DNA of 64,000 nucleotides, from the NCBI RefSeq assembly GCF_000193495.2, contig NZ_AP023410.1, positions 1,116,001 to 1,180,000 of the forward strand, in the 5' to 3' direction. Made by a program: the position numbers and the translations under genes. The notes beneath the pieces are model-generated. The model made no database searches. It was given only the letters and a program-made list of their open reading frames with translations, and had not been told where the DNA came from. This stretch comes from Acetobacter aceti NBRC 14818. GTDB lineage: Bacteria > Pseudomonadota > Alphaproteobacteria > Acetobacterales > Acetobacteraceae. Shown piece after piece: positions 14,557 through 43,283 of the stretch (positions are counted from its first letter, which is position 1; each line of letters begins with the position of its first letter).

Positions 14557-15687
14557 TCAGATATAATGTTCCGCCAGCGGTGCGAAGCCGTTGAAACGGG
14601 TCGCGCAGTAGGTGGAAACGTAGGCGCCCGTTCCAAGAAGCTCGACACGATCACCGGATTCGAGAGCGAGCGGCAGTTCGTAATGCGTCTTCTCGTACAT
14701 GATATCCGCGCCATCACAGGTCGGACCGGCGAGCGCCACCGCGCCTGTCTGCCCACCATCACGCGGCGTACGAATCGCGTAACGGATCGCCTCGCCTTCC
14801 GTTTCGGCCAGACCACCAAAGCGGCCGATATCGAGATAGACCCAACGCGGACCGCCTTCGCGTCCACGCTGGCTGACCAGCACGACTTCAGCGGAAACCA
14901 CGCCAGCAGCGCCAACGATAAAGCGACCCGGCTCGATCAGCATTTCCGGCAGGGCATTGCCGAAGTGCTTTTTCATCGCCGTCGAGATCGCCTCACCGAA
15001 ATCGTCAATGTGCGGCACGTCCTCACGGTAACGGATGGGGAATCCGCCGCCGAGATTGACCATGCGCAGATCGAGACCGGCTTCAGACAGATCGGACACC
15101 AGAGCGGCGACACGGCTGATCGCCATTTCGTAGCTACCGGTTTCAACCTGTTGGCTTCCCACATGGAAGGACAGACCATACGGATCGAGACCAAGATCGC
15201 GGGCCTTGAGCATCAGTTCGCGGGCGCTTTCGACCGTCGTGCCGAACTTGCGGGACAGCGGCCATTCGGCTCCGTAATTGTCCACCAGAAGACGGCAATA
15301 AACCTTCGAGCCTGGCGCATGCTGGGCGAGCTTGTTCAGCTCTTCCTCGCAGTCAAAGACAAAGAGACGGACACCGGCGGCATAAGCGGCCTTGATCGCG
15401 CCGACTTTCTTCACGGTGTTGCCGAAAGAGATGTCATCAGCGTCTGCGCCTGCATTCAGGCACATTTCGATCTCTTCCCACGAAGCCGCATCGAAGCTGG
15501 AACCAAGGGAGACCAGTCGGGTCAGGATCGCCTCGGCCGGATTGGCTTTCACGGCATAATAGATGCGGGCAAGAGGAAGTGCGACCTGAAGGGCACGATA
15601 ACGGTTTTCGACCTCATCGACATCGACGACGAGGCACGGGGTTGCGGGTTTTTCTTCCGCAAGAAACTGAGAGATTTTGGGTGTCAT
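14557..15687 (-). CDS. Ornithine decarboxylase, fold type III (PLP)
   Basis: A 376-residue alanine-racemase-fold decarboxylase that makes putrescine from ornithine, possibly also cadaverine from lysine. Marks: the PLP lysine in IYYAVKANP, FDAASWEEIEMCLNAGA, SFGNTVKK, YGLSFHVGSQQ, the glycine loop NLGGGFPIRY, IEPGRFIVG, and the substrate cysteine region GPTCDGADIM with the final YCATRFNGF. Length and motifs fit alphaproteobacterial L/ODC enzymes. ATG at 15687 is preferred (MTPKISQFLAEE); a TTG at 15768 in the same frame is less likely. Its 5' region holds a leader frame and a hairpin, suggesting control by polyamines or ornithine. Confidence 0.93.
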   Translation of the reverse strand: MTPKISQFLAEEKPATPCLVVDVDEVENRYRALQVALPLARIYYAVKANPAEAILTRLVSLGSSFDAASWEEIEMCLNAGADADDISFGNTVKKVGAIKAAYAAGVRLFVFDCEEELNKLAQHAPGSKVYCRLLVDNYGAEWPLSRKFGTTVESARELMLKARDLGLDPYGLSFHVGSQQVETGSYEMAISRVAALVSDLSEAGLDLRMVNLGGGFPIRYREDVPHIDDFGEAISTAMKKHFGNALPEMLIEPGRFIVGAAGVVSAEVVLVSQRGREGGPRWVYLDIGRFGGLAETEGEAIRYAIRTPRDGGQTGAVALAGPTCDGADIMYEKTHYELPLALESGDRVELLGTGAYVSTYCATRFNGFAPLAEHYI

Positions 15688-15705
15688 CGCACCTATCCCT
15701 TGCTG

Positions 15706-15733
15706 GCCTGCCAGATAAGGAGCCGTGGCAGGC
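15706..15733 (-). promoter_or_regulatory. Perfect hairpin just upstream of the decarboxylase start
   Basis: GCCTGCCA (15706-15713) and TGGCAGGC (15726-15733) pair perfectly around a 12-base loop. On the message it ends 18 bases before the decarboxylase ATG and begins 16 bases after the stop of a 42-codon frame. The position suits control of ribosome access or attenuation. The hairpin is seen; regulation is inferred. Confidence 0.6.
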
Positions 15734-15749
15734 TGTGTTGCGAAACGGT

Positions 15750-15878
15750 CTAACGGACCAGCGACCAAGACTGAATCCCGAAGGATCCCAGTTGCCAGAA
15801 CGCTTGACGTCGTTGCGTAACCTCAGTGGGCCAGTGGCACGTGCGTTGCTGCGTGAGGGGGCATATGGGGCGTTTCAT
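15750..15878 (-). CDS. Candidate leader peptide of the ornithine decarboxylase
   Basis: A 42-codon frame starting MKRPICPLTQQR and ending QSWSLVR-stop (TAG), in the 5' region of the decarboxylase gene and in another frame. The Shine-Dalgarno is weak. It is followed after 16 bases by a perfect hairpin and then the decarboxylase. In enterobacteria the speF operon is controlled by a leader peptide that also ends in arginine-stop and stalls with ornithine; the layout here is analogous but the sequence is not alike. It could be chance. The remaining 243 bp up to the divergent yihY start (15879-16121) hold no gene but contain two small hairpins at 15988-16024. Confidence 0.35.
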   Translation of the reverse strand: MKRPICPLTQQRTCHWPTEVTQRRQAFWQLGSFGIQSWSLVR

Positions 15879-16121
15879 GCCCGAATGCAACAGATTTTTT
15901 TATTACACCGAAAAAACTGGAAAACCCCTTCTCTCTTCCTTTAAGACATTCAATAACTGTCTTTCATGAAACAGAAACTTTCGCAGTAGAATCTTCGGAT
16001 TCTGGTGGGCTGTCTGTCCACCCAACTCTACTCCGAGCGCCTCCTCAACTCAGGGCGCGCCCTGCACTCCCGGCAATCGCTGCAGGCTTCACCGAATATA
16101 GTTTGAGGTTGACGACATCTG

Positions 16122-42888: not shown

Positions 42889-43283
<395 letters not shown>

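Follow-up and report, generated by a model that had tools for sequence, protein, structure and literature searches.

The leader of the ornithine decarboxylase (ODC) gene in Acetobacter aceti NBRC 14818 is best explained as a cis-acting structured mRNA element, the Acetobacteraceae type of a family of leaders that precede polyamine genes in Alphaproteobacteria (probability roughly 0.7). It lies on the minus strand of the window, i.e. the whole stretch of 64,000 nucleotides analysed here, and is matched by R1, a covariance model trained on Acetobacteraceae only. An earlier note on this DNA had proposed a polyamine-responsive leader, perhaps working through an arrest peptide; a regulatory ODC leader related to other alphaproteobacterial leaders is very probably present, while the peptide is not borne out. 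The features are as follows.

15885-15890, minus strand: predicted -35 box TTGCAT, pattern conserved in 107/114 relatives
15862-15867, minus strand: predicted -10 box CATATG, with the RNA start predicted near 15855
15750-15878, minus strand: 42-codon frame of the earlier note, judged not to be a gene
15736-15855, minus strand: conserved structured leader element of the Acetobacteraceae type (R1 match, about 120 nt)
15834-15855, minus strand: 5' strand ACGCAG..GCACGUGCC; its helix P0 covaries across Alphaproteobacteria
15854-15851 with 15803-15800, minus strand: P0, in which ACGC can pair with GCGU (pair counts; permutation p about 0.0002-0.0003)
15818-15833, minus strand: hairpin P1, UGGCC (15833-15829) with GGUUA (15822-15818) (alignments, pair counts, permutation p 0.04)
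15808-15816, minus strand: GCAACGACG, nearly invariant; forms the left foot of the long hairpin and is common to the ar45/speF leaders
15740-15816, minus strand: long bulged hairpin (RNAalifold, same fold in single sequences), with left strand 15816-15794, variable apical hairpin 15793-15763 and right strand 15762-15740
15706-15733, minus strand: terminal hairpin GCCTGCCA/TGGCAGGC, sequence not conserved
15696-15701, minus strand: probable ODC ribosome-binding site AAGGGA (from the sequence)
14560-15687, minus strand: ODC gene, 376 aa, PLP-dependent, alanine-racemase fold type (family and PDB homology)

The conserved leader and its gene

The leader was matched by DNA search in 132 of 150 Acetobacteraceae genomes (91 of 102 genera), and all 148 Acetobacteraceae leaders that were mapped lie directly upstream of ODC, whose start codon is AUG (GUG in one). 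The A. aceti genome contains the ODC copy only. The 5' part of the element has the order ACGCAGCAACGCACGUGCC, UGGCC, a variable loop and GGUUACGCAACGACGUCAAGCGUUCUGGCA; the 3' part consists of a variable hairpin of 0 to more than 60 nt followed by GUCGCUGGUYCGUUNGACCGUUUCGC. In 107 of 114 dereplicated leaders the element is preceded, at a distance of 5-10 nt, by a promoter pattern (TTGC, 16-18 nt, TAT-like -10 box). Two Acetobacteraceae genomes (L317, L323) carry a second copy, of the type with a U-run, before a paralogous decarboxylase.

The gene product belongs to the Orn/DAP/Arg decarboxylase family, with lysine/ornithine decarboxylases and eukaryotic ODCs as nearest PDB entries, and the identification of the decarboxylase in the earlier note therefore stands; its identity to the proteins of A. 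sp. UBA5411 and A. sicerae is 99% and 98%, respectively. The layout given there is likewise correct base for base: from TAG at 15750, the end of the 42-codon frame, a 16-base gap leads to an 8-bp hairpin (arms GCCTGCCA, 15733-15726, and TGGCAGGC, 15713-15706, around a 12-base loop), and an 18-base gap to the ODC ATG at 15687. This terminal hairpin, previously regarded as noteworthy, is an ordinary one. It is the least conserved part of the leader, and the stability of its segment is no better than that of shuffled sequences (z = +0.1; family mean -0.68); a role as the key element was ruled out, since as a class these hairpins are not more stable than shuffles. In a Roseomonas-like clade (L259-L297) the last hairpin by inspection overlaps the ODC ribosome site while its sequence changes (CCUUC..GAAGG, CCUCA..UGAGG, CCUCC..GGAGG). 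An N-terminal extension of ODC from TTG at 15768 was rejected because the distance between the conserved block and the ATG is random modulo 3.

RNA structure of the leader

Unguided folding of 60 sequences with RNAalifold yields the long bulged hairpin, in which the left strand GC-AACG-ac-GUC-AAgCG-uu-CUGGC and the right strand GCUGG-uc-CGUU-n-GAC-CGUU-uc-GC enclose a variable apical hairpin. Single sequences adopt the same fold with modest stability (mean z -1.7). Standard pairs occupy 99.4% of the long-hairpin cells in the family alignment, and nearly all changes keep the pairing (G-C to G-U, U-G to C-G or U-A, G-U to G-C or A-U). Two-sided changes are absent from this hairpin within the Acetobacteraceae family because the sequence is too conserved. 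Pair counts do not distinguish the long hairpin from a pair of local hairpins, ACGC/GCGU and GGUC/GACC; the latter alternative was discarded, as it is broken in three leaders (L241, L266, L268) where the long hairpin is intact.

The 5' domain comprises P1, whose loop varies among relatives from about 5 to 60 nt, and P0, which links the 5' end to the segment following GCAACGACG. The helix P0 has only 4 bp in A. aceti, and across Alphaproteobacteria it occurs as GACGC/GCGUC, GCCC/GGGC, CCGUC/GACGG and GACGU/ACGUC. In two permutation tests that ignore kinship, pairing is better between matched strands than after permutation (p 0.0003 and 0.00015), and two-sided changes number 15 as against 5.8 in shuffles (pair counts, alignment A2). 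P0 uses bases that also belong to the middle part of the long hairpin, so that the two partly exclude each other, which suggests a two-state switch. The folding energies would allow one: the enforced P0 and long-hairpin folds differ by 0.8 kcal/mol in A. aceti, and on average the long hairpin is favoured by 2.6 kcal/mol. Pairings of the 5' end with the hairpin loop that would be compatible with a pseudoknot can be drawn as well, in columns that are invariant.

Relation to ar45, speF and other leaders

The A. aceti leader is matched by no Rfam family, and the comparison with the Rfam speF RNA advocated in the earlier note has given a divided answer. The speF model (RF00518) finds nothing in the window at the gathering threshold (37 bits) or at E up to 10, and its only match in the A. 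aceti genome is a weak one at another site; the covariance model of ar45 (RF02347) does not match the leader either. A relation to the 5' half of such leaders, represented by ar45, emerges through intermediate families instead. The model R1 detects leaders in many other alphaproteobacterial families, with E-values, rough after a short calibration, down to 4e-10. In the class sample it gives 60 matches outside Acetobacteraceae. For 41 of these an ODC gene follows on the same strand at a distance of 8-359 nt; those examined among the remaining 19 mostly precede ODC paralogues or AdoMet decarboxylase plus spermidine synthase. Two of the R1 loci (L114, E 6e-8; L124, E 8e-9, both rough values) carry a weak ar45 match (E 0.02) at the same place. 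In one further locus (L178, 176-537) ar45 and speF matches lie end to end before ODC and give the appearance of a single element in two halves. Because R1 gives no direct match to speF-positive loci, the link is drawn through this chain of intermediates and the order of GCACGUGCC and GCAACGACG, by which the Acetobacteraceae element appears to be kin to ar45/speF across a weak bridge (E about 0.02). Of 385 class genomes, 79 contain the element according to a second model that includes some speF-type leaders (R2), and the matches of this model in the phylum sample are all alphaproteobacterial except a marginal one.

Like the A. aceti leader, ar45 presents GCACGUGCC, a variable stem and GCAACGACG in the same order and is closed by a P0 helix between the 5' strand and the segment after GCAACGACG; in L178 it stands directly before the speF leader and ODC. 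The ar45-type loci differ in having GCCC/GGGC and a U-run in place of ACGC/GCGU, the latter being followed in the Acetobacteraceae alignment by GCGUUCUGGCAA or close variants without a U-run. In the speF RNA as described by Corbino et al. (2005, PMC1273637), a stem carrying a large insertion precedes a long bulged stem-loop. This RNA lies before the same ODC gene (COG0019 type), and its conservation begins near the transcription start, as is predicted here; however, the speF leader is much longer and its 3' part has no counterpart in Acetobacteraceae. The Rfam entries ar45 and speF may thus be halves of one leader, and the Acetobacteraceae leaders seem to be missing from Rfam altogether.

The enterobacterial speF/SpeFL leader acts via an ornithine-sensing arrest peptide. 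It too precedes an ornithine decarboxylase and has alternative RNA folds, but SpeF is an unrelated type of decarboxylase, and a conserved peptide of the SpeFL type with a constant C-terminus was not found in the 114 dereplicated Acetobacteraceae leaders. The odc1 motif (uORF-25-1) is another alphaproteobacterial ODC leader (PMC8632094). It is an extended hairpin whose stem contains the ribosome site; it has tandem UUG codons as starts, encodes a peptide of 11 residues and is proposed to form a pseudoknot by pairing of its loop with the 5' end. Compared by description only, the A. aceti leader differs in its AUG start, the lack of a conserved peptide and the ribosome site outside the hairpin. 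Neither tandem UUG starts nor a conserved 11-residue uORF are seen in the Acetobacteraceae leaders, and the class sample holds no convincing case of odc1-like tandem UUG starts.

Target genes and possible modes of control

Copies away from ODC have polyamine synthesis as their common theme. They precede ODC paralogues of about 30-35% identity to ODC (13 loci), AdoMet decarboxylase plus spermidine synthase (L318), homospermidine synthase (L369, L371, L374; R2 matches) and a glutamine amidotransferase (L303). From the copies before ODC paralogues, homospermidine synthase and AdoMet decarboxylase/spermidine synthase it follows that the element is likely a polyamine-gene control element, and its occurrence before several polyamine-making genes across Alphaproteobacteria suggests that polyamine synthesis is controlled there by a common RNA device. 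The A. aceti genome has one spermidine synthase, which lacks the element. In other lineages P0 is followed by a segment (CCUUUUUGG or similar) with complementarity to a Shine-Dalgarno site (CCGAGAGGG), and in most of them an ATG 50-70 nt after GCAACGACG marks the start of a short uORF or of the enzyme. Acetobacteraceae no longer have this Shine-Dalgarno site; a ribosome site is lacking from the right strand of the long hairpin, and a further hairpin separates that strand from the ribosome site of ODC.

For A. aceti, the proposal is that transcription begins at the element itself and that the RNA folds into a 5' domain, made up of P0, P1 and the two conserved segments GCACGUGCC and GCAACGACG, plus the long bulged hairpin, with P0 and the middle of the latter competing for one left strand. 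Polyamine status, sensed directly or via a protein or the ribosome, would tip this balance, so that the leader refolds and ODC translation changes, probably in feedback control of polyamine synthesis. More speculatively, the leader might be the minimal natural form of an unrecognised polyamine-sensing RNA class, pseudoknotted or bistable, with homospermidine, norspermidine or an acetylated polyamine as ligand and ODC, its paralogues, homospermidine synthase and AdoMet decarboxylase/spermidine synthase as targets.

How polyamines are sensed in Alphaproteobacteria has been a standing question since speF failed its ligand tests in 2005. It is possible, if doubtful, that the element is a metabolite riboswitch with the 5' domain as aptamer, e.g. 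for homospermidine or another pathway compound, and the long hairpin as expression platform. The very high sequence conservation of so short an RNA, the compatible pseudoknotted alternatives and the single copy before each of several pathway genes are in keeping with this. On the other hand, in-line probing of the Agrobacterium speF RNA (-400 to +3) revealed binding of none of six related metabolites, namely ornithine, lysine, diaminopimelate, putrescine, cadaverine and spermidine, homospermidine being absent from the ligand list (PMC1273637). A homospermidine synthase query, run without a positive control, gave no match in the A. aceti genome, which also counts against the riboswitch reading. 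Further candidate ligands are suggested by the association of the element with the genes for homospermidine synthase and spermidine synthase. Being short, free of a uORF and immediately followed by ODC, the leader described here would allow cleaner ligand tests than the 400-nt speF leader.

Rather unlikely is recognition of GCACGUGCC and GCAACGACG by a protein, either a conserved regulator that binds RNA or a component of the ribosome; no candidate protein is known. The invariant unpaired segments would suit such a protein, as would the failure of the published probing to find small-ligand binding (PMC1273637).

A further reading, implied by the filing in Rfam under ar45, takes the 5' part for a self-standing small RNA that merely adjoins ODC; this appears improbable. 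In Bartonella, ar45 has been reported as expressed apart from speF just downstream (PMC7717549), and in ar45-type lineages P0 with its U-run resembles a terminator; premature termination where a U-run follows P0 would fit the separate Bartonella transcript. Yet the position before ODC is kept in more than 90 genera and other polyamine genes are preceded by the element as well, and in Acetobacteraceae a separate short RNA is unlikely because no U-run follows P0.

The remaining reading, namely that the 42-codon frame is translated and the ribosome stalls at its Arg-stop in response to ornithine, can practically be dismissed despite the open frame with this ending and the short frames that follow the element at constant distance in other lineages, some with a conserved peptide. 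The frame runs from ATG 15878 to TAG 15750 (translation MKRPICPLTQQRTCHWPTEVTQRRQAFWQLGSFGIQSWSLVR*) and its length alone is not beyond chance, as 111 ORFs of at least 25 codons occur in the surrounding 8 kb. With the RNA predicted to start near 15855, its ATG falls upstream of the transcript, into the promoter spacer between the -35 and -10 boxes. Among the 114 dereplicated leaders, the stop is retained in 8, and an ATG in register is present in 34, in 2 of them within the predicted transcript. The stop corresponds to a variable bulge base in the RNA fold (TAG/TCG/TGG). The lengths of the variable insert are not confined to multiples of three (44/36/34 modulo 3), the distances between blocks spread evenly across the three reading frames, and Shine-Dalgarno-like conservation ahead of the frame is lacking. 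The DNA is conserved above chance across 15869-15736, the part formerly read as coding, but a comparison of related leaders for coding bias and a constant C-terminus, as the earlier note had advised, finds variation equal at all three codon positions; the frame is not conserved, which by that note's own reasoning tells against the peptide. Judged from these comparisons, the 42-codon frame is not a gene.

Short frames of a different kind occur in relatives. In four loci (L369, L371, L374 and the truncated L382) the copy of the element before homospermidine synthase is followed by a frame of 14 codons that has a good ribosome site; its peptides are similar (MTGHSPAPIPRHDR, MNGHAPAPHPRTNR, MFGHMLAPPPRIER; weaker in L371) and mostly end in Arg-stop, which makes this frame a real leader-peptide candidate. 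In Rhodospirillales-like loci (L078, L085, L089, L093, L095, L099, L103) the frame between the element and ODC reaches 38-59 codons and has a recurring C-terminus, e.g. GRKNPLSSM or PSSIG.

Elsewhere in the window, a bacterial class A RNase P RNA gene is located at 42892-43283 on the plus strand.
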